A stretch of 48,013 bases of DNA from a virus, in IMG/VR virus record IMGVR_UViG_3300032285_001364, positions 1 to 48,013 of that record. One strand, given 5' to 3'. The position numbers and the translations under genes are program-made. The notes beneath the pieces are model-generated. The model did not search any database and was not told the DNA's origin. It saw only the letters and a program-made list of their open reading frames with translations. Of the stretch, positions 20,377 to 42,580 are shown piece by piece (positions within the stretch are counted from its first letter, which is position 1; each line of letters opens with the position of its first letter).

Positions 20377-20910
20377 ATGCCAGCCCGCAAAATAGTTCAC
20401 GCAGACGAAGATATTAGAGCTATGATCTTGGCGACAGGCTCGATCAAGGCAACGGCGGACGCGCTGGGATATAAAGAAGAAACCCTGCGAACATTAGCGC
20501 ACCGAAGGGGCTGGATGACCCCAGCAAGAGCCGCAAAGAAACGGAGGGAGGCGGATCGTGCAATGGCGGAAGTGAAGGGAGCGAGAGAACAAGCAACAGG
20601 TGAAACGAGTCCCGCGACGATTGGGGAAGCTTTGCAGAATCATCTGGAAAAATCGTCAACTTCGTTCAGATCTTCGATGGCAACAGCCTTATCAGCCGCC
20701 GCAAATGCCGCCGCCGAGATGCCTGCGATCTCGGCTCTGGATATGTCCCGTAAGCTGGTAGACCTTGCAAGCGCGGGTAAGACAATCTTCGGGTTAGGCG
20801 AAGACAAACATGGCGCGCAGTTATCCGTCAATGTCTTACAGTTGGGCATCGACCAACTTCGCGGGGCAATGTCTTACAGCGACGGGCATTGTAAGACGAT
20901 TGATTTGTAG
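20377..20910 (+). CDS. Helix-turn-helix protein, possible small terminase
   Basis: 177 residues from ATG 20377 (MPARKIVHADED); an upstream in-frame start at 20182 would add an unlikely hydrophobic extension. The N-terminal 45 residues are a helix-turn-helix (ILATGSIKATADALGYKEETLRTLAHRRGW), followed by a charged helix, an Ala-rich central domain and a C-terminal segment DMSRKLVDLASAGKTIFGLG. The layout (DNA-binding head plus helical oligomerisation domain) resembles small terminase subunits, but could equally be a regulator. GTCTTAC repeats lie in its 3' end and just beyond, as pac sites often lie in small terminase genes. Lone plus-strand gene in the control region. Confidence 0.65.
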   Translation: MPARKIVHADEDIRAMILATGSIKATADALGYKEETLRTLAHRRGWMTPARAAKKRREADRAMAEVKGAREQATGETSPATIGEALQNHLEKSSTSFRSSMATALSAAANAAAEMPAISALDMSRKLVDLASAGKTIFGLGEDKHGAQLSVNVLQLGIDQLRGAMSYSDGHCKTIDL

Positions 20911-20998
20911 TTCGTTGTCTTACATTGTAAGACCTTGCGTGATGTTAGCTTGTCTTACATCGTGTAAGGAATCTATTATTTGTGGGACATTGTAAGAC
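20833..20998. repeat. Cluster of GTCTTAC/GTAAGAC repeats
   Basis: Seven exact copies of the heptamer lie within 166 bases: forward at 20833, 20871, 20917 and 20952, reverse at 20891, 20927 and 20992; a degenerate reverse copy (GTAAGGA) is at 20963. The extended consensus is (A/T)TGTCTTACA. Two copies form the 17-base palindrome GTCTTACATTGTAAGAC (20917-20933). The first three lie in the end of the helix-turn-helix gene. This is iteron- or operator-like: a replication origin, pac site or repressor array. 20911-21081 is otherwise empty. Confidence 0.85.
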
Positions 20999-21081
20999 GG
21001 GCACCCCCCTAACATCGCGAAGGTTCGCCGCGCGAATTTCGCGAAAACCCCTCCACAATTTTTCCTAAAAAAGCCGATGTT

Positions 21082-21312
21082 TCACTTCCTCTTCTTCTTT
21101 TGTTTCGCTTCACTCTGTTCCTTCCAATGGCATTTACCATAGATTGTTTTTAGAGCTACGGATTCTGGAAGGTCTTGGACGAAGAGTTTGAGGCGAAGGG
21201 CGTATTCTGGTTCCATGAGGGCAACTAGGTGGGAGTATTCCTCGCCCGAAGCCGCTAGTTTGGTAGCATCTTTGTAGGCTTGAAAGGAGATGGAGTTTTT
21301 TTGATTGTACAT
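21082..21312 (-). CDS. Hypothetical small basic protein
   Basis: 76 residues. Helical, with a basic C-terminal tail (KEQSEAKQKKKRK) suggestive of nucleic-acid binding. Its start codon lies in the first of two direct repeats (21305-21354). No family recognised; read from the minus strand. Confidence 0.55.
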   Translation of the reverse strand: MYNQKNSISFQAYKDATKLAASGEEYSHLVALMEPEYALRLKLFVQDLPESVALKTIYGKCHWKEQSEAKQKKKRK

Positions 21313-21354
21313 GATGGGTATGTGTAAAGATATGTCGATGATTTGTACATGATG
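21305..21354. repeat. Direct repeat TTGTACATGATG
   Basis: TTGTACATGATG occurs at 21305-21316 and 21343-21354, 38 bases apart, each followed by a similar ATGTGTAAAGA or ATATGTCTAAAGA. The first copy covers the start of the minus-strand gene, so this may be its duplicated control region. Confidence 0.6.
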
Positions 21355-21494
21355 AAGGTGATATGTCTAAAGAATTGAGTTTTGTAGACATGAAGGAAAG
21401 TTACTATTGATGGATAGTAGATGGTGTTTACTACATTGGAGTAGTTGGATTGGATGAAGGCATACCTTTAGGTAGGTGAACGGATGTGAACATA

Positions 21495-21522
21495 AGAAGC
21501 CCTAGGCGTTACTAGAGCTTCT
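21495..21522. other. Strong stem-loop downstream of tRNA
   Basis: AGAAGCCCTAG (21495-21505) pairs with CTAGAGCTTCT (21512-21522): 11 pairs with one mismatch or wobble position and a six-base loop. On the minus strand it lies about 70 bases beyond the tRNA and could end that transcript, though the T-tract is poor. Two smaller hairpins (TACTAT/ATAGTA and ACTAC/GTAGT) lie near 21401-21445. Confidence 0.5.
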
Positions 21523-21594
21523 GCATCCCCTCGGCTTCAAGAATGACCTATGGAGCCTTGTCTGACTGGGTGGACTGGGATGAGGAGGGATTGA

Positions 21595-21665
21595 TAGCTC
21601 GGCTGGGAATCGAACCCAGATCTCCAGCTTATGAGACTGGTGACTTACCATTTGTCCACCCAGCT
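21595..21665 (-). tRNA. tRNA with CAT anticodon (Met type)
   Basis: A standard cloverleaf on the minus strand: acceptor AGCTGGG/CCGAGCT with one G-G mismatch, D arm GAC/GTC with GG in the loop, anticodon stem CCAGT/GCTGG with loop CTCATAA (anticodon CAT, plus-strand ATG at 21631-21633), T stem CTGGG/CCCAG with loop TTCGATT, discriminator A, no encoded CCA. Elongator Met is likely; an Ile tRNA with modified C34 cannot be excluded. Confidence 0.9.
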
Positions 21666-21755
21666 ATGAATCCTCAAATCAAGGACAGGCGGCTATTCCT
21701 GTCCTCTTGACCTTCGGGAGTGGCTCGACACAATCTCGATTTCCAGTCCTTACAC

Positions 21756-21988
21756 CATCTTCCAGACTTGCTGGTTGATTCGTGAAAAATAGGCTTGCGG
21801 AAGATGAATGTCAAGATATTGTTTTGATCCTGCGAGGACGATAGACCCGAAAGGGAAATCTCCAAACCCTTACGGATCGGGGAATAGCCGTATAGCCAAA
21901 GGATAGGCGATAGGTCGCACATAGCGGGCCGTCCTCAACAGTCCCGTATCGGGGAAACCCGATTCGATATGGTTCGCCCAGCGGGACT
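21756..21988 (+). ncRNA. Candidate multi-branched structured RNA
   Basis: Many consecutive helices can be drawn. CATCTTCC (21756-21763) pairs GGAAGATG (21799-21806). GAGGACG (21834-21840) pairs CGTCCTC (21930-21936), closing a multiloop with CCCG/CGGG (21846-21849, 21925-21928), AAGGG/CCCTT (21851-21855, 21867-21871), ACGG/CCGT (21872-21875, 21888-21891) and TAT-A-GCC/GGC-G-ATA around 21891-21912. AGTCCCG (21940-21946) pairs CGGGACT (21982-21988) around ATCGGG-GAAA-CCCGAT, a GNRA-capped hairpin on the plus strand. Two minus-strand open frames cross it but look implausible. Strand is inferred only from the GNRA loop. Confidence 0.5.
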
Positions 21989-22017
21989 CCATTTTGTTTA
22001 GATTTTCTGCAATAGAT

Positions 22018-22099
22018 GAAGCCATGCTTGATTAACTGACGCAGAAATAATCCCCTCATGGGGGGGATGCTGATTCATTTTCCAAACAAGCATGGTTTT
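22018..22099 (+). other. Long stem closing on a T-tract
   Basis: GAAGCCATGCTTG (22018-22030) pairs over 13 positions, two of them G-T, with CAAGCATGGTTTT (22087-22099), enclosing a second hairpin ATCCCC/GGGGAT (22050-22068). The run of Ts at the 3' side resembles the end of a plus-strand transcript, perhaps the 3' end of the structured RNA upstream. Confidence 0.5.
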
Positions 22100-22116
22100 T
22101 GTTAAGTAGGATTGCG

Positions 22117-22265
22117 TTACTGGATGTGGAGCATTAACTGGGATTTTGTTCCATATTGGGTATAATATGGTGTCTTAACTGGCAAATTGTACCAGATCGG
22201 GATTATTATTGGATGTGCGATGGAAATCTTATTGGATGTGCGATGGAAATCTTATTGAATGTGCG
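22117..22265 (+). repeat. TTA(N)TGG repeats and 23-base tandem repeat
   Basis: A 23-base unit beginning TTATTGGATGTGCG repeats in tandem at 22206, 22229 and, degenerately, 22252. Related words TTACTGG(ATGTG) at 22117, TTAACTGG at 22134 and TTAACTGG at 22175 precede it. A TATAAT hexamer lies at 22161-22166. These repeats sit just before the virion operon, so they may be binding sites for a late-gene activator. From 22266 to 22378 I see only AT-rich DNA and no gene. Confidence 0.65.
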
Positions 22266-22378
22266 TGATCGGTAACATTTTCGGATTGTCTATGATCGTT
22301 AATAAAACGACGCTCTTTTTTTAACAGATTACTCTGTTCCTCCTAGACAAAAGGATTTGGATAGGGCAATCAAGTGGG

Positions 22379-23026
22379 GTGAAGATATTGCCCAATGGAA
22401 TAGCTGTTATTGAAGGAGACACCCATATATCGAAGTGGGTGGAGGAATCTGGGCGTTTGGATCACGACCAATACGCTCTTCCCATCATCCTAGAGCATAT
22501 TGAGGAGGGGGATTGGGTAGTGGATGCAGGAGCCTTTATCGGGGATCATACTAGGGCATATCTGGATAAGGTGGGGGATTCTGGGGTAGTGATGGCATTT
22601 GAGCCTAATTCGGAGGCTTTTGAGTGCCTTGTTTATAATTGCCCAGATGCCGATACTCTCCCTCTGGGGCTATCTGATTGTTCCACGCCTGCTAGGTTGC
22701 AGTTAAGAACCAATGCAGGGGCTTCTATGATTGGGGATGAGGGGAGTTGGATTCAGCTTGTGGAACTGGATAGCTACAACCTTCCGCAACTGGATTTCTT
22801 GAAGCTGGATGTGGAGGGGTATGAGTTAAATGCCTTGAGAGGGGCAAGGAAGACGATTAAGGTTCACAGACCTAATATGTGGATTGAGATCAATGAATAT
22901 GCTCTCAACCAGCAGGGGGTCACCCCTAGGGATGTTTATCGTTTCCTAGACGAGTTTGACTATGATATTACTTCCTATCCAGAGGATAGCATCCCGCAAT
23001 ACGACATTCTCTGTATTCCGAAATGA
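22379..23026 (+). CDS. FkbM-family methyltransferase
   Basis: 215 residues from GTG 22379. The SAM-binding motif VVDAGAFIGDHT (about residues 47-58), acidic FEPN at the end of the second strand (about 74-77), and LDVEGYE (about 142-148) are the FkbM hallmarks. These enzymes usually O-methylate sugars or related hydroxyls. Its stop overlaps the start of a glycosyltransferase-like gene, so the pair probably builds and caps a glycan. First gene of the rightward virion operon. Confidence 0.9.
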   Translation: MKILPNGIAVIEGDTHISKWVEESGRLDHDQYALPIILEHIEEGDWVVDAGAFIGDHTRAYLDKVGDSGVVMAFEPNSEAFECLVYNCPDADTLPLGLSDCSTPARLQLRTNAGASMIGDEGSWIQLVELDSYNLPQLDFLKLDVEGYELNALRGARKTIKVHRPNMWIEINEYALNQQGVTPRDVYRFLDEFDYDITSYPEDSIPQYDILCIPK

Positions 23027-25398: not shown

Positions 25399-26487
25399 AT
25401 GCCCGGCACTCCCTCTGGAAAAGCATTTATTTACGATATTGGTCGCGCTGGTGGCGGTGGGGGTGGGTATAGCGGCATGGGGAATCCCTATGCTGATTCA
25501 TTTGCTGGTGATCTTGCCGCATTGAACCTTGGCTGGAAAGCCCAAGAGCAAGAAAGGTTGCAGAAGGGGTTTGAGCTTTCTGAAGAAAGGGAAAAAAGAA
25601 AAGAAATAGAAGAACAGCGTCGATACGAAGCCCAACAAAAAAGGCAAGACTTTCAAGAGCAGATAGAAAAAAGAAGGATGGATCATCAGAACTTCATGGA
25701 AAAGAAGTCTTATGATCTGGAGCTTGCAAAGCAAAAGCATCAAGAGCTTCAAGAAAAAGTTGCCGCCGACAAAGAGGAAAACAATTACAGAACTGGGCAG
25801 TTGTCTTCAATGCTTGAGTTGATTGACCCAACCGCCTCCGATGCTCATAAACAATTAGAAGAAATTGTTTCAAGCGACGACTTTAAGAAAGTTGGATTGA
25901 GGCAAGGCGGCAATATGCTTGCCATGCAAATCAACAAGGTGAAGTCAAACATCCAAAAGGCAAGGCAGGCAGAACAGGCTAAAGCTGATATGGATGCTAA
26001 AATCCAGCAGGGATGGACTCCTAAAACATTTACTGATGCGAATGGTGTCTCTCGTACAACTCTTGAGCCTCCTAAAGTTATTGACTACACCAAGCAGGCT
26101 AAAGAATTTGAAACCAGATATAAGATCCCATCTGCGGCATTGAATGTACCGCTTGGGGCGAAGGCTGGATCTATCCAGACCATGAGGGGAAACATTGTTG
26201 ACGGGGCATTTAAGGCAGACCCAGAGGGAGACTATGTGAGGGCTGTTGATAAAACAAATCCAACAAGAAAGAAAGAAGCATTGATTCCTTTTGAAGAGTT
26301 CTCTTCAGCCCAGCAAACAATGTCTGGCAAAACAAAATCTGGAGCAGGGATGGCTGGCGGGACGGCATTCTTCCCATCAACCCCCTTGCCTTCACCCACT
26401 CCACAAGATACAACTGAACAACCAGCCCCACAAACACAAAGGTACATATACGACCCATCTACAGGAACCCTTAATCCTCAACAGTAA
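25399..26487 (+). CDS. Coiled-coil internal virion protein
   Basis: 362 residues. Gly-rich start (GRAGGGGGGYSGMGNP), then a long coiled coil (about residues 45-130; EQERLQKGFELSEEREKRKE), a helical middle and a Pro/Thr-rich C-terminus. Probably a structural or ejection protein packed in the capsid. Stop overlaps the next start (TAATG). Confidence 0.5.
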   Translation: MPGTPSGKAFIYDIGRAGGGGGGYSGMGNPYADSFAGDLAALNLGWKAQEQERLQKGFELSEEREKRKEIEEQRRYEAQQKRQDFQEQIEKRRMDHQNFMEKKSYDLELAKQKHQELQEKVAADKEENNYRTGQLSSMLELIDPTASDAHKQLEEIVSSDDFKKVGLRQGGNMLAMQINKVKSNIQKARQAEQAKADMDAKIQQGWTPKTFTDANGVSRTTLEPPKVIDYTKQAKEFETRYKIPSAALNVPLGAKAGSIQTMRGNIVDGAFKADPEGDYVRAVDKTNPTRKKEALIPFEEFSSAQQTMSGKTKSGAGMAGGTAFFPSTPLPSPTPQDTTEQPAPQTQRYIYDPSTGTLNPQQ

Positions 26488-29400
26488 TGCCTTCCATTGT
26501 TCAGATCCCCGATGTGGGGGAAGTTGAGTTTCCAGAGGGAATGTCCAAAGAGGAAATATCTTCGGCAGTTAAAGGAATTTTATCCAAACAAAAAGGAGGT
26601 GAAAAAACAAATGCACAAGATCAGCCACAAGCCTACACGGAAGGCAATGCGCGACGAGAAGCCCAGCAACAAGTCCAGCCTTCCCATGAAGGAGAGCTAC
26701 AAGCCGACAGTCAACCCAGTCCACGGGACGGGCAAGAGCGTGTCGGGGGTGTCAACTCCAGTCAATCACAAGGGCAAGAATCGCCCCTGTATGTAACAAC
26801 ACCATTTGCGACAGGAGGTGATTTAGTTGAAAAAGATGCCCAAGCAAAAGGCAAACGAACCCAAGGGGAAGAAGGTCGGCAAGCAGTACGACCAGAAAGC
26901 CCTGCGCGGAACGAAGAGGAAGTAAGTAAGGGCGGGGTTCCATCCCCCGCTCCTAAAGGTCTTCTTGAGAAGACTGGTGAAGCATTATATGCTGGATACA
27001 AGGGGCTTGGAACAGCCGCCTCTGAACTCCAAAGGTACGGATGGGATTTATCCAAGGGAGTTAATCCGATTGTAACAGCCGCAAAAGATGCTGAATTTGT
27101 CTTTGGTAAAAACCCATTCTCTGACAAAGTTGCAGAGAAAGTTCAAGAGGGTGATAAGTATTTTGCAGATATGGTTGCTGGAAGTCAGATGACTCCAGAA
27201 GAAGCCCAAAGCCCAATCAATCAATTCACATTTGGAGTGGTTCACATGATCGGCGATCTAGTGGAAGCCGCCGCAACGGAAGGCGCGTCGGCTGAATCTT
27301 CCGCCATCAAAGCTGTTTCTGAAATTCCGATATGGAAAACGATTGCAGATAAGGCTGTTCATGGAATGAAAGCCTTTGCTGTCCCTTCTTTAGTTGCATC
27401 CAATGAAGCAATCGACAAAGCAAAGGCAGAAGGAAAGTCTGATGAAGATGCGCTTCAAAGCGGTCTTCAAACAATGTTTGAGACGGAGGCAGGAGCGGCT
27501 ATCCCAATGAATGTAAGCTCTGGCTTGAACACGGTTATCAAGCGTGTAGCAAGCAGAATCCTTCAATCCATCCCACTTGCAGTAGCCCAAAGTGAGCTTA
27601 CCAAGTCTATTCATAACTCGATGAATAGCGAGGAAGGACATGAGAACACGATCAGCGAAAACATTATTGAAGGTAATTTTGATCTTGCCGCCAAACAACT
27701 GGCTCAAGTTGTCCCAATGGGACTTATGGGTGTTCTTGGAGAACGAGCAAAGGGAGTTAAAGAAGCTGGACTTCCTGCTACTGCTTCCGTTCTTGAGGGA
27801 AAGAAAAAACCAATAACATTTTCTGTAGATCCGAGTGAAGAAATTGAATCCATATACAAAACAGCAGAAAACGCTATTGCTAGTGGAGATAGAACAGCCG
27901 CATCTTTGTCTCTAAATGCCGCAAAAGAAGCTGAATCTGCTTCTGAAAATGCAACCACTCCAGAGCAACAAGCACAAAGGCAGAAGAGATGGAATTATCT
28001 TGATTCTCTGATTGAATCTTTACCATCAGAAAAACCAGAGGAAAAAACCTCACAACCCACAACACCAGATGCCACTAAAACAGGGGAAGTCAAAGAAGAC
28101 ACTAAAGGAAAATATCCGCAGGGAGATCAAGGCGGGGAAACCTCAAAAACAGGCTATAGCCATAGCCTACAGCCAACAGAGGAAGGCCAAGAAAAAATAG
28201 AAGGCACTCGCATTGCCGCCGCCGCATATCGAGATCCCGAAACGGGCATCGTGCATGAGGGGGAAAGCCATGAAGATGCAATGCAGAAGGCTGGGAAGAC
28301 TCCTATTACCGACCCAGCACAAAGGGAAACCAATGACTTTGGTTATACCACAGACAAGGGAGAGTTCATCTCCCGTGAGGATGCACAAGTCCTAGCAGAA
28401 AAGTCTGGTCAGTTCCTTGGAAAGAAAACCGATCGTCCTGTCATGCACAGCCAAGAGGTTGCTCAAGACAAGAAACCAGAGCAGATGACCCGCATTACGC
28501 CCAAGCAATATGGGCCGGGGGCTTCCGCAGGGGCAGAGCTTTACAATAAGGATGTTCAATTTGGTACGCAGATCATTCAAAGCCAGAAAGGAATGTCCTT
28601 TGAAAAATGGCGTGAATTGTTTGAGCCTAGGATGTATGAGGGCAAGTACGAAGAAAACGAGCTACGCGACCTTTACGAGCGTTCCAAACAGGCGGCAGAG
28701 ATCGCTGATAGAGGCGTTCCCATCCCAGAAGCAGTAAAGCAGATTGGAGGAAGACCTCTAGCCCCTCGTTCTGCATCTGCCCTTGCAAATGATAAGATCA
28801 ACGCTACCCGTCAGTCTATGGGGCTATCTAGGCTTGCTGATGTTGCTAAAGACACATGGAAGGCGGTTTGGGAGAGGGCAATGTATAAGATCGACGATGA
28901 TCCATACTACAAAACCGAGCTTCTAAAGAAACTCAAAGAAAACCCCAATCAAGCAGTAACCGCTGAAGACGAGGCAATCCTTCACCATGAGATTATTTCT
29001 GTAAAGAATAAGTATGATGAAGCGATTGATGCCCTGCAAAAAGAAACAGATCCATCTAGGATTGCAGAAAGGAAAGCAGAGGCTCGTAGCTTGGAAGATC
29101 AATATATGGAGCTTACCCAGCTATCCAAGCAAACTGGACGGGCTACTGGTCAAGCTTTGAACATGAGGAAGGCTCTTATTGCCGATGACTTCAGCCTCCT
29201 TGGTATGCTCCGCAAAGCAAAGTCTGAAATTGCTGGCAGGGCAGAAGAGGATGGAGGAGCAGAGCTTTCTGAAGAATCTCGAAAGAAGATTGAGGAGCAA
29301 GCCAAGAGAATCGAAGAGCTTGAGAAGGAGCTTAATGAGCGCACTCAATCCATGAAAAGTGAGATGATGGATGAGGATCTTGAAGACTTTACAAAAGAAG

Positions 29401-32400
29401 CCAAAGCTGAATCAAAGGAGACAGACCCGCTTGTTCAAAGGATTGTTGACAAGTTGAGGGCTACCATCAGCGATCAAGCTGAAGCCGCTAGACAGCGCAT
29501 TGCAGAAAGGCAGAAAGGCGGCAAGTTATTTGCTGATGTTACTGGTGCTAAAGTAGCACTAGATACTGCTGACTATGCAATCATTGGAGCTGATTATGTC
29601 TCTAAAGGATTAACTGACTTTGCTAAATGGTCTGCAAAAATGGTTGAGGAATTTGGCGATTATATTAAGCCTTACTTGCAAAAGATTTTTAAGGAAGCTA
29701 ACGACCACATTGACAAGCAAGCTGACATCCTTACGCAAACCTCCAAAGAAAAGAAGGCTTCCAAGAAGGAAGTTAAAGAAAAGGTAAAGCAGGAGGCAAA
29801 GAGAACAGCCGCCAAGTCTCCAGATGAGAAGATTCAGAAATACCTTAATGAGATTAGGGAAGACCCCGACAACCATGAGAGGGTGGGAAGCCTTGTTCGC
29901 AGTCTAGCTAAAGCCGTTCATCAAAAGGCTTATCGCTCTGGCAATGATCTTAACAGAAATCAGTTTGCTGATGCCGTTCACAAGATCGTCTCCAAGGAGA
30001 TTGAAGGTTGGACAGAAGCAAATACGAAAGAAGCAATGGTTGGTTATGGTGTCTTTAAGCGGCTCTCAAAGGATGCTGAAACTGTTCGCCTCCGTGAGTT
30101 GAATGGAGAGATCAGAGAGATCGCCAAACAGGGGGACATTAGAAAAATTGAAAAAGAAAAATTAGATAGAGGCCCAAAGAAAACTGGAATTGAAAGGGCT
30201 AAAAGCTCTGTTGGAGAGCGCATTGAAATTAAAAAGAACAAAGCCCTTATCAAGAAGTTTGGAATCAAGGTAAAAGACCCAGCAACGGAGCTTGCTGGAA
30301 TGATGGATTCCATCAAGAACAGGCTCCGCAACCACATTGAAGAACTCAATAAGCGCATTGAAACAGGGGAGCGTCCCCCCAAGAAGATGCCCATTGAATA
30401 CGATGACGAAGCCAAGGCATTGCTTGCGGAGCGTGATGCCCTTCAGCAACACTTTGACACTCTTTACGGAAAGGCAGAAAAGACGATGGAGGAAAAGGTT
30501 GCCGCCTATGAGATTGCCAATCAAAAGCTGATTGATGCTAAAACAAAATTTATCGCAGAGGAGAAGGAGCGTATTGCCGCAGGCAAAAAGATGACTCCAA
30601 AACAGAAGGAGAAAATCACTAGCCCGAAGATCGAGGAACAGAAAGAGCAAATTGCTAGGCTGAATGAAGAAGCCAAGTCTGTGCGTGATTCTGATTATGC
30701 TCGTCGTGAGGAGATCAAGGGTAATGCCGCAGGAAAGAGAATCGAGACAATCGAGGCAGAGATTGCGGGAATGAAGAAGGCAAGGCAGAAGGAGCAGACT
30801 GTTCCATCAAAAGCCCTTGCATTCATCCAAGACAAACTTGCTGATGCCGAGAAGAGGCTAAAAGAATTTAGAGAATCCCAGAAGGTTAAGAAAACAGAGG
30901 ATGAGAAGATCCTTGAAGATCTTAACAAGAAAAAGCAATCCGCTGAAGAAAGGCTTGCTAGACTCCAGACTGGAGAGAAGAAGCAAGTTGGCAGGAAGCA
31001 GATGGTTCTTAACAAGGAACAGCGTTCTGTTCAGAACGAGATTGATGATCTAAATAAGCAAATCAAGGATTATCAAGAAGCTTCCAAGACCCGCCTCACA
31101 CAAGAGGAAAAGAACATCAACAGCCTCCAGAGGAGGATTGATTCTCTTCAAAAGCAAAGGGAAACTAGGGGCGCGAAAGAAGCTCCAAAGGAAGAAACCT
31201 ATGTTCCCTCTGATCGTGAACTAACACTCCAGAAAGAACTTGAGCAACTTAAACAAGATGTTAAAGGCGACGATTGGTATATTAACAACAGAGAGAAAGT
31301 TGCATTAAATGCATATAAAGTTAGACTAATGCGGCGAAGGGATGAGTATGTTAGGAGAATGGCTGAAAAGGATTTTGCTCCCAAAGTTAAACTTGAAAGA
31401 GTTGTTCCTCCAGAAATCGAAAAGCTGAAGGCTGATGTGGAGCGTGTTAAGTCAGAGTTTGAACAAGATCGAATCTTTGATCGTTGGCAGAACAGAAGCA
31501 ACTGGGAAAAAGCCGCCGACTTGGCTGTTGCTTGGAAACGATTTGCCATTCTGTCCTATGCTGGAACCCTAGCAAAGCTGTTTGTTGCCTCTGTAAACAT
31601 CGCAACATTTAAGATACCCGCATATGTGTTTGGAAGATTGATTGCGGAGCTCCCCGGATTTAGGGAGATTGCCAAACTAGCCCCCAGCGAGGGAGGGGGA
31701 TCTATTTCTCAAGATGTTAAAAACTATACCAAGGGGCTTTGGGAAGGATTGCAAGAGTTTAAGGATATTGCAATTAAGCAAAAAGATTCAAAGCTTTCAC
31801 TTCTTCACAAAGAAATCTCTGGGGAAGCAGAAAGCAAGATACCTAAAGGCGCACTTAACATCCCCGGCAAAATTCACGAAGCGATCAAGAATCCAACAAA
31901 ATTAGCTGTATATAAAATGTCTTTTGCCCGTCACCTAGATTGGATGCAAAAGAATGGAGTTGAGATATTTGGAGAAGCTGGAGAAGCCGCTAGGCAAAAA
32001 GCAAGCATTGAAGCATTTAAGGATGCCAATAGAAGTATCTTCATGGAGGATAACTCTGTTGTTAAATTTTACAATAGCATCGTAGCACAAGCCCAAAGAA
32101 GCAAAAACAAGGGAATTAGAGGTGCTGGGTATGTTGCTCAAGAACTTGTTCCTATTGTTAAAATCCCAACCAATGTTGTTAAGCAAGTTTTTGAATATGC
32201 ACTTGGCGCACCTATTGGTGGTATTAGAGGTATTACAGCCTTGGCAAAAGGAGTTGAGAATCTTTCTCCAGAGCAGGCAAATTCCATTTTGAGGCAGATG
32301 AAAACTGGTTCAGTTGGATTGACCATGTTTGCATTGGGGGCGGCATTGCCAAATTATTTTGGAGGGTTTTATCGTAAAAATGCAACCCCAGAAGAAGGAG

Positions 32401-32834
32401 AGCCGGGGTTTGATGAAATGAAAATAGGAGATTGGGTTGTTCCCAAAACATTTATGCACCACCCAGCCTTAATCGCTGGTCAGATCGGAGCAACAGTTAG
32501 AAAAGTTTGGGACGATGGAGCCGAAGATGCAGAGGATTCTGAAGCAAAGGTAGATCTAGCCGCAAAGGCTGGATATCAAGCAATGCTTGGAGTTGTTACT
32601 GAACTTCCTTTTGTAAACATCTCAAGGGATCTTCAGCAAACATTTGATCCAAAGAGGGTTGGCAACTGGGGAGGAAACTTTGTTCGGTCTAACATACCGG
32701 GGTTTGTTCAAGAGTTTGCAAAAGCAATGGACAGAGATGAGGACGGCAATTTAATCAAGAGAAAACCAGAAAGTTTCTTGGAAACTATTGAACAGGGGTT
32801 GCCTTGGTTGAGAGAAAGCATTACACCTAAATAA
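26487..32834 (+). CDS. Giant internal virion / large polyvalent protein
   Basis: 2115 residues. The N-terminus [21 protein letters not shown] is the short module that opens many phage ejection-type giant proteins. Residues about 40-170 are Gln/Ser/Pro-rich and disordered. A helical domain follows (about 160-330), then long Glu/Lys coiled coils (about 800-1700), and a C-terminal domain (about 1680-2115) with hydrophobic helices ([51 protein letters not shown]) that could enter membranes. This suits a protein ejected with DNA to form a channel, or a large polyvalent protein. No lytic transglycosylase or polymerase motif was seen. Confidence 0.75.
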
Positions 32835-39650: not shown

Positions 39651-39989
39651 ATGTCTGCCGCTACCTACAACATCTTGATTGAGCAGAATGCTAACTTTTC
39701 CATCTCTGTTACTGTGCAAGATGGTAGTGGTAATCCGATTGATTTGACAGGGAACACGATTGAAAGCCAGATAAGGGAATACCCTACTGGTATTATATTT
39801 GATAATTTTGAGATCAATGTGACTAATGCATCGCAAGGACAATTCACATTGAGTTTAAGCGCGAGTCAAACATTGGCATTGCCTGTTATTGGTATGGAGT
39901 ATGATGTTCTTATGACTCTTTCTGACGGGGTTACAAAGCAAAGGCTTATGGAGGGCAAAATAAGCATTTCGGAGCCTATTACGCAATGA
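39651..39989 (+). CDS. Beta-domain fibre-associated protein
   Basis: 112 residues, all-beta (ATYNILIEQNANFSISVTVQDGSGNPIDLTG), resembling the Ig-like or BppU-type N-terminal domains that attach receptor-binding fibres. Its stop overlaps the start of the collagen-like fibre, so it is probably the fibre's connector. Confidence 0.65.
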   Translation: MSAATYNILIEQNANFSISVTVQDGSGNPIDLTGNTIESQIREYPTGIIFDNFEINVTNASQGQFTLSLSASQTLALPVIGMEYDVLMTLSDGVTKQRLMEGKISISEPITQ

Positions 39990-42580
39990 GTGATGTTACC
40001 CTTCAAGTAGTTGATAATTATTCTGTTTTGATAAAAACAGCTGTTGGTGTTCCGGGCATCCAAGGCCCGATTGGCCCACAGGGAATACAAGGAATTGAAG
40101 GCCCCGTTGGAGCAACTGGATCTCAAGGGCCTGCTGGGGAAACTGGGCCACAAGGGCCTGCTGGAACTGGTATTAACTTTAAGGGGCAAGTATCTACAAG
40201 CTCTCAACTCCCTCCCTCTGGAAATACTACGGGAGATTCTTACATTGTTGAAGACACATTACATTTTTGGATTTGGAATGGTTCAATCTGGGTAGATTCT
40301 GGCCCAGCCTTGCAGGGGCCTCAAGGGCCACAGGGGCCTGTTGGAGCAACTGGGCCTACTGGTTCCCAAGGATCTCAAGGGCCTGCTGGATCGACTGGGC
40401 CTACTGGGCCGCAGGGAATCCAAGGTGTTGCTGGGCCTTCTGGTGACACAGGCACCGTGGGGCCGCAAGGGCCTATTGGGCCGCAAGGAATCCAAGGCCC
40501 GATTGGTCACGGAATTGTTTTTAAGGGGAGCGTTTCCTCAAGCTCCGCATTGCCTTCATCTGGCAATACGAATGGTGATGCTTATATTACCACAGACACA
40601 TTGCATTTTTGGATTTGGGATGGGTCTTCTTGGGTTGACGGAGGGGCATCTACGCAAGGGCCTCAAGGCCCCGTTGGATCGCAAGGCCCCGCTGGGGCGC
40701 AAGGGATTCAAGGAATCCAAGGGCCGCAGGGTTTGACTGGTGCGACTGGTGCTGTAGGCCCAGCTGGCCCTAAAGGAGATAAGGGGGACAAAGGAGATAC
40801 GGGATCTCAAGGAATCCAAGGAATCCAAGGGCAAACAGGCCCACAAGGACAGCAGGGAATCCCCGGTGCTGGAATTATTTTTAAGGGAAATGTTGCTACA
40901 AGTGCAGATCTTCCTAGCTCTGGAAACACAAATGGAGATTCTTATATCACCCTAGATACATTCCATTTTTGGGTTTGGAATAGTGGTGTTTGGGTTGATG
41001 GAGGTGTGTCTGTAAAAGGGCCGCAGGGGTCGCAAGGCATTCAAGGCCCTAAAGGAGATACTGGTTCCCAAGGCATTCAAGGAATCCAAGGCCCCGTGGG
41101 GCCGCGAGGAATACAAGGCATTCAAGGATTGGAAGGCCCTCAAGGAATCAAGGGAGATACTGGATCGCGGGGGCCTCAAGGATTAACTGGGACGCAAGGG
41201 CCTGTTGGCCCCCAAGGAGTTCATGGACAAGATGGGGCGCAAGGCCCTCAAGGGATTCAAGGCCCTGCTGGAGCCAATGGATTAAACGGATATTCTGTTC
41301 TTCATGGAGTTGGTGCGCCAGATATTTCCATTGGAAGAAACGGGGATTTTTACATAGACACCCATGCAAATAATATCTACGGCCCTAGAGAATTTGATGA
41401 ATGGGGGAATCCCACATCTATAGTTGGGCCTCAAGGAATCCAAGGCATTCAAGGGCCTACGGGGCCGCAGGGGCCTGAAGGCCCTCAAGGGCCGAGTGGA
41501 TCAAGCTATGATTGGGTTCAGTCATCTGGAGCAATATTCAATTCAACTTTAAGCGGAACTTTAGCTTCGTCCTATAAAGTTGAAGGGGTATCACTTGAGA
41601 AACGACTTTCATCAGAAACTTTATCTACGACGCATAAAGTAAATGGGATTGAATTTATAGATTCCCTGTCATCTGAAAGAAAATCATCTTTTTTGGATTC
41701 TGGTAGTCTCAATTTGACTGACTCATTATCTTCGGGGGCAAAAACGGCAAACCTTCAGCTTTCTGGTTTGTCTTTATCTGATTCTCTCTCTACAGAGAGA
41801 AGGGAAGCAACCTATTCTCTTTCTGGAGTTTCTTTGTCAGATTTTCTTTCTTCGGAGACAAAAACAGCCAGTATTTCATCTTCTGCTATTTCGTTTGCAG
41901 ACAATCTCACTTCAGAGGTTAAAACTGCCAATTACGGAATTGATTCTATTTCTATTAGCGATTCCCTGTCTGGGAATTCAAGTTTACTTTCAGCTTCATC
42001 GTCGTCCGTTGAATTGGTAAATTCAAATGGAACATCATCTAACCTAACAACAAATAATCTTTCTTTTGGAAGTGCTTTTACTTCTTCTAATTACGGGCTT
42101 ACAAATCTAACAATATCCAACCCGTATGCGACTATTAGTGGGTCTTCATTAACGGGAACCAGCTTTGTTGGAACGGCTAATGGATTGTCGTTAATAGACT
42201 CAATTTCAACGCTTTCCGCATCAACTTCTGAATTGCTTATTTCAGATGGTCTTTCCACTCTTGATGGAACATCTTCTCATTTAGCGGTACAGGATTCTTC
42301 TCAAAATCAAACTGCACTTTCTTCTACTGTTGTAAATTTATCTAACGGCGATAACACAAATGTAATATCTTTGGTAATCCCAAATGGAGGAAGCTCTGTT
42401 CCTTTTCTTGGGATTAAACAAGATTATCAAAGCGACACATTATATCCCTATAGGACTGTTATTATGACAGTTCCAGTTGATTCTTCTGGAAGTTTAAGAT
42501 CTGCAACATGGCAGGAAGTTGATGTTTGTTCTAATGGACAAACAAAGAAAATGATGATACTTGGGACAGCCCCTTATTGA
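39986..42580 (+). CDS. Collagen-like tail fibre
   Basis: 864 residues. An N-terminal attachment strand, then long Gly-X-Y collagen-like blocks (about residues 24-60, 110-175, 225-293, 340-430, 470-505) interrupted by copies of a 45-residue beta module (FKG...SGNTxGDxY...HFW(I/V)W...WVDGG) near residues 63, 176 and 295 and a diverged one near 432. Residues about 513-672 are eight tandem 20-residue repeats centred on (S/D)xLSSExK. A final domain (about 780-864) is globular beta. Trimeric fibre for host recognition. Stop precedes a gap of 100 bases. Confidence 0.9.

Follow-up and report, generated by a model that had tools for sequence, protein, structure and literature searches.

Analysis of the window, that is the whole stretch of 48,013 nucleotides of viral DNA (IMGVR_UViG_3300032285_001364), reveals a structured RNA on the minus strand between positions 21489 and 21785. 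It belongs to a phage RNA family that was previously uncatalogued, as judged from Rfam 15 and the literature, a scope that may miss unpublished families and those described in subscription-only sources. A sequence-only reading had proposed a multi-branched RNA at 21756–21988, beside a tRNA in a phage control region. Such an RNA does exist at this locus and its helices covary, but it lies on the other strand and mostly to the left of the flagged stretch: the RNA body overlaps this stretch only at 21756–~21785, its promoter lies at 21786–21814, and the 5′ end and promoter together cover its first ~65 bases. The 5′ end is inferred from the −10 box to be near 21780, and the structured core extends from 21756 to 21489. 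Measured from the promoter to the 3′ strand of P1, the RNA is ~300 nt long in the window; among relatives the core measures 171–295 nt, and the RNA ranges from 170 to 325 nt. The overall fold consists of a 5′ hairpin (P0), a closing stem (P1) and arms P2 to P6. The features of the locus are the following:

21489–21785, minus strand: structured RNA, from the match to the covariance model (CM) R1 and covariation
21809–21814, minus strand: −35 box TTGACA of the RNA promoter (10/12 matches together with the −10 box, 17-nt spacer)
21786–21791, minus strand: −10 box TATTTT, from promoter search and relatives
21762–21774, minus strand: P0, 5′ hairpin CCAG-CAAGT-CTGG, read by eye and outside the pair counts
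21751–21756, minus strand: P1, 5′ strand GGUGUA, pairing with 21489–21494
21489–21494, minus strand: P1, 3′ strand, pairing with 21751–21756
21717–21749, minus strand: P2 arm with inner stem UCGA/UCGA, from covariation
21706–21710, minus strand: strand 1 of the probable pseudoknot, UCAAG, in the P2/P3 junction, read by eye
21682–21705, minus strand: P3 hairpin AGGACAGG/CCUGUCCU, 7/8 pairs changing on both sides
21584–21675, minus strand: P4 arm, the swap site, with tRNA-Met as its tip in the window, from comparison of relatives
21593–21666, minus strand: tRNA-Met (CAU), joined to the P4 tip and sense to the RNA (ARAGORN; Rfam RF00005, 62.9 bits)
21524–21582, minus strand: P5 arm CAUCCC/GGGAUG with inner GGCU/AGCC, from covariation
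21537–21541, minus strand: strand 2 of the probable pseudoknot, CUUGA, in the P5 loop, read by eye
21495–21522, minus strand: P6 hairpin AGAAGC..GCUUCU, helices 8–9 of the covariation model
21082–21312, minus strand: conserved 76-aa ORF, 3′ of the RNA in clade 1, with a homologue away from the RNA in clade 2 (L168)
21834–21987, plus strand: multiloop and AGTCCCG..CGGGACT stem (z −1.3, no homologue), not part of the RNA

Relatives of the RNA are present in ~29 IMG/VR phage contigs besides the window. The MTase gene (FkbM domain) to the right of the region was used as bait and yielded 34 phage loci. Three contig groups (L003/L002, L034/L004 and L007) could be aligned through the noncoding region, only to the left of ~21833, and compensatory helix changes between 21485 and 21757 were first seen in these alignments. 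Family members were collected by scanning IMG/VR with two conserved motifs and then with two further ones. Clade 1 comprises 14 distinct sequences including that of the window; the more distant clade 2 comprises L166–L177 and L181. The window is a training sequence of R1, which was built without P0, and its own match (21489–21756, 217 bits, E 1e-60) is therefore obtained by construction, as are the R1 E-values of the clade 1 members. Clade 2 members, recruited via a short motif that is itself part of P2, match the full model with E-values of 1e-12 to 1e-16. The window displays the characters that define the family, namely a full-length R1 match, TTGACA-17-(−10) at 55–60 nt, and P2 with its C.C mismatch. 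Exactly one RNA is found per phage record in the 12 records searched whole. Relatives were found neither by blastn against 50,697 annotated phages nor with the flanking DUF932 protein as bait. Prokaryote genome contigs gave 107 pattern hits, in none of which did the R1 match extend past the pattern (best E 0.015); therefore a cellular copy was not found by the pattern route.

The covariation evidence for the minus-strand RNA is decisive. In a plain MAFFT alignment of the minus strand (A1), made independently of the model, both sides are changed in 22 of 48 pairs and 95.8% of cells pair; the observed level is reached in 0 of 500 shuffles, and structures slid along the alignment reach 2–9. Alignment A3, which unites clades 1 and 2 (21 distinct sequences) and leans towards the model to which it was fitted, shows two-sided changes in 31 of 43 pairs, amounting to 148 such cells, and 96.2% of its pair cells are standard, with none of 500 shuffles as good. 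Its covariation score is 0.512, against 0.204 in shuffles and 0.07–0.14 when the structure was slid. The sense strand is the minus strand, as indicated by 53 G-U cells versus 7 A-C cells, by the promoter-like sequence ahead of P1 in all 22 members examined, and by the embedded tRNAs, which are sense to the RNA in every case. That the conserved block is not an RNA but a protein-coding segment or a DNA-level element, such as a recombination or tRNA integration site, is hardly credible. Indeed, tRNA cassettes enter and leave at the place of P4, as a DNA-level element would allow, but two-sided compensatory changes occur in nearly every helix and the G-U excess is that of an RNA; barring an alignment artefact, the covariation refutes any non-RNA reading. 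The protein-coding version was rejected on these changes and on two further grounds: stops interrupt every frame in most relatives, leaving no frame open in all, and length differences are not multiples of three.

Folding energy says little at this locus, because the covariation-proven RNA itself scores only z = −1.8 in the window. For most clade 1a members the consensus fold lies ≤10 kcal/mol from the MFE; it is 13 kcal/mol above it in the window and 27–32 above it in L034 and L036, in which P3 and P6 are misaligned. The value for the window is partly explained by the conserved GUCCACCCAG, which can pair with the 5′ end of the tRNA.

The individual helices are conserved to different degrees. 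The stem of P0, directly 3′ of the −10 box, varies among relatives yet remains paired, and its loop is CARGA or GAAAA. P1 (GGUGUA/UUAYRYY) has 95% of cells paired and two-sided changes in 2 pairs. The outer helices of P2 and P5 are paired in 100% of cells, with 6/6 and 5/6 pairs, respectively, changing on both sides. Midway along P2 a C.C mismatch, invariant in all members, is flanked by three covarying pairs on either side. The P2/P3 junction probably forms a pseudoknot with the P5 loop, judging from the complementarity of the two strands: UCAAG can pair with CUUGA in 12 sequences, both sides are changed in L034 and L036 (UAUCA with UGAUA), and a 4-bp AGGA/UCCU pairing is possible in clade 2. 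A rival partner, the UUGA next to P3 and directly ahead of P4, is compatible with clade 1 (2/3 sequence groups) but not with clade 2. P1 closes a multi-armed junction of P2 to P6, a fold that the pseudoknot probably locks. As a separate observation, nucleotides ~3–12 of tRNA-Met (CTGGGTGGAC, window 21654–21663, minus strand) form a 10-nt perfect complement of GTCCACCCAG in the P5 arm (21566–21575, minus strand), and clade 1a conserves the TCCACCCAG portion of the latter even in members without tRNA-Met; this complementarity may be due to chance or may reflect an antisense contact.

The sequence-only reading had correctly placed a tRNA beside its RNA, and had missed that this tRNA is part of the RNA and forms the tip of P4, where its acceptor stem prolongs the P4 helix end to end. 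The window and L042 have tRNA-Met as the tip, L041/L049 have tRNA-Trp, and L056 has a tRNA-like element, sense to the RNA and furnished with a T-arm and CCA, for which neither ARAGORN nor Rfam gives a call. L003 and L043 carry a two-arm module instead, and the remaining relatives a short hairpin. The cores of L041 (tRNA-Trp) and L045 (plain hairpin) are 99.4% identical while their P4 arms measure 86 and 24 nt; those of L056 (tRNA-like) and L007 are 98.4% identical, with P4 arms of 75 and 15 nt. Near-identical cores with and without a tRNA thus show recent and repeated gain or loss of tRNAs at P4, always in the sense direction, and P4 is a tolerant arm where complete phage tRNA genes get installed repeatedly. 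In some phages the same transcript may then also yield a tRNA, which host RNase P and 3′ processing could release while P1 and the pseudoknot hold the core, or which could be retained as a structural arm. A more specific proposal, which we regard as tentative and on balance unlikely, is that P4 is a dedicated tRNA docking site and that a chimeric scaffold-tRNA keeps its tRNA attached, the type being exchanged as needed; the attached tRNA could then be shielded from host tRNA-cleaving defences, for example, or be presented to a bound partner. Outside the RNA, L034 has a tRNA-Trp just beyond the promoter, on the strand opposite to the RNA, and tRNA-Lys(UUU)-like sequences without an ARAGORN call are seen on the plus strand at L003 5640–5710 and L007 5890–5960.

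No other promoter-like site of the region scores as high as that of the RNA in the window. In 22 of the 22 family members examined, TTGACA is followed after a 17-nt spacer by a −10-like hexamer, and the distance from TTGACA to P1 is 55–60 nt in all of them, the −10 hexamers varying from TATATT and TATTTT to AATCAT and TAATCG. Both clades have a GCAAG word, a possible regulator site, near the −10 box or the start, with varying offset. In clade 1 an ORF of 71–80 aa comes after the RNA on the same strand, and beyond it, in most cases, a convergent gene that looks HTH-like. The other side of the RNA is occupied by the MTase, a glycosyltransferase-like gene and genes of structural appearance. The 76-aa ORF of the window has no match among Pfam and PHROG families. 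In clade 2 the RNA is followed by a gene that reads as ParB-like from its sequence or by another ORF, and a GATCTGATTTCAGATC hairpin followed by a T-rich run stands directly 3′ of the RNA. A small-terminase-like convergent gene, recognized by eye, raised the possibility of a terminase-linked packaging RNA of the phi29 pRNA type, a candidate that found no support and was rejected.

Transcription from the minus strand would start at this sigma-70-type promoter, and it is rather likely that the product is a free-standing, phage-specific RNA, a reading favoured over a cis-acting leader because the downstream gene changes, because clade 2 has its hairpin and T-run, and because tRNAs are embedded in the RNA. 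A leader that controls the next gene, either riboswitch-like or as an antitermination element of the put type, is possible but doubtful. HK022 put RNA and processive antitermination leaders are structured RNAs with which a phage transcript opens; put elements are cis-acting, have two stems and measure ~65 nt, whereas the present RNA is larger and carries tRNAs, which fit poorly with a cis switch. The RNA does begin ~10 nt or less from the predicted start, and a conserved small ORF follows on the same strand in all clade 1 loci, as does another ORF in clade 2; since no clear or strong terminator was found between the RNA and the 76-aa ORF in the window, a long 5′ leader is conceivable there. 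On the other hand, the next genes of the two clades are unrelated while a homologue of the 76-aa ORF persists away from the RNA in clade 2 (~4.8 kb in L168), which argues against a leader tied to one gene, and the hairpin and T-rich run directly after the clade 2 RNA speak against it as well. Moreover, there would be little operon to control, because almost all clade 1 loci that extend far enough have a convergent gene after the 76-aa ORF. As a free-standing RNA, it would most likely serve as an early-expressed, trans-acting scaffold that binds a host factor or assembles with itself.

The setting is of the general sort typified by GOLLD and ROOL (phage, intergenic and tRNA-associated), as the sequence-only reading had supposed. 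The present RNA is not a GOLLD, which is nevertheless the nearest precedent for the hosting of tRNAs. GOLLD is often over 800 nt long, with stems P1–P27, a universally conserved 3′ domain and a variable 5′ region, and forms a 14-mer cage; phage tRNAs are sometimes located in its variable linker (PMC12286853). Both RNAs are phage-encoded, structured and tRNA-associated, with tRNAs sometimes inside, but the present RNA, at 170–325 nt, has another fold, does not fit the layout and size of GOLLD, has no Rfam match outside the tRNA, and joins its tRNAs to one arm through the acceptor stem. ROOL is a phage and prophage RNA found near tRNA islands and is pseudoknotted, a character that is only probable in the present RNA; the ROOL studied is far larger (659 nt), forms an octameric cage (PMC12286853) and has no sequence or structure match to our RNA. 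A search of the window region and of seven relatives with Rfam (4227 families) at gathering score returned tRNA alone. The check that had been suggested for GOLLD, ROOL and OLE, made by cmscan of 21000–22400 with E up to 10, gave no match, and Rfam scans for GOLLD and ROOL gave none in L039 2280–2680 (E up to 10) or in seven relatives (E up to 2). Given these results and the sizes, we strongly disfavour a diverged member of either family, tRNA association notwithstanding, as very improbable. Small RNAs are also known from the tRNA cluster of phage T4, where stable RNAs C and D are made alongside the tRNAs; to our knowledge neither has a tRNA grafted on an arm. GOLLD and ROOL, found near phage tRNAs, rank with the largest structured RNAs that lack a known function. 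The family described here is small, separate and strongly covarying, has its own predicted promoter and a single copy per phage record, and is one in which tRNAs are grafted onto or lost from one defined arm between near-identical RNAs. Why such RNAs travel with tRNAs becomes testable on a molecule of 170–300 nt, for which L041 and L045 are natural controls with and without a tRNA.

The multiloop that had been proposed on the plus strand lies outside the covarying RNA. Its closing helix GAGGACG (21834–21840)/CGTCCTC (21930–21936) can be read in the sequence as drawn, the GNRA-capped arm is present with a GAAA cap, a stem AGTCCCG..CGGGACT is found at about 21940–21987 with CCA directly after it, and 21756–21988 is indeed free of a convincing gene. 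As a structured RNA the multiloop did not stand up. The interval 21756–21988 folds with z = −1.7 on each strand, and the multiloop part, 21826–21990, folds near its shuffles with z = −1.3 on either strand, 24 and 18 of 200 shuffles being at least as stable. No homologue was found among the phage loci compared, the exact multiloop pattern matched no viral contig, an Rfam scan of 21800–22020 returned nothing relevant, and relatives aligning on both flanks have other sequence in place of 21826–21990. The covariation that had been advised as a check was found in the minus-strand RNA (21489–~21785), the multiloop having no homologues to align. That 21834–21936, together with 21940–21987, represents a functional RNA or a decayed pair of tRNAs is improbable: the stems are stable, the last one with its CCA resembles tRNA ends without a recognizable body, and some relatives have a plus-strand tRNA-Trp (L034 and L004) or tRNA-Lys-like sequence at the corresponding place, but the folding score, the lack of a homologue and the absence of a tRNA or Rfam match argue against it.

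Several repeats and unusual reading frames were noted in the surroundings. TGTAAAGATATGTCGATGATTTGTACATG-like words are repeated at 21313–21420, between the RNA and the 76-aa ORF, as well as in L003, L034 and the L166 group, and look operator-like. TGTAAGAC and GTCTTACA occur in many copies of alternating orientation within ~170 bases at 20830–21000, and a tandem repeat of period 23 (2.6 copies, 97% matches) lies at 22206–22265, upstream of the MTase gene. Further away, a 2115-aa ORF without Pfam or PHROG match occupies 26487–32834, and 39986–42580 encodes a collagen-repeat protein (Pfam Collagen), probably a tail fibre.
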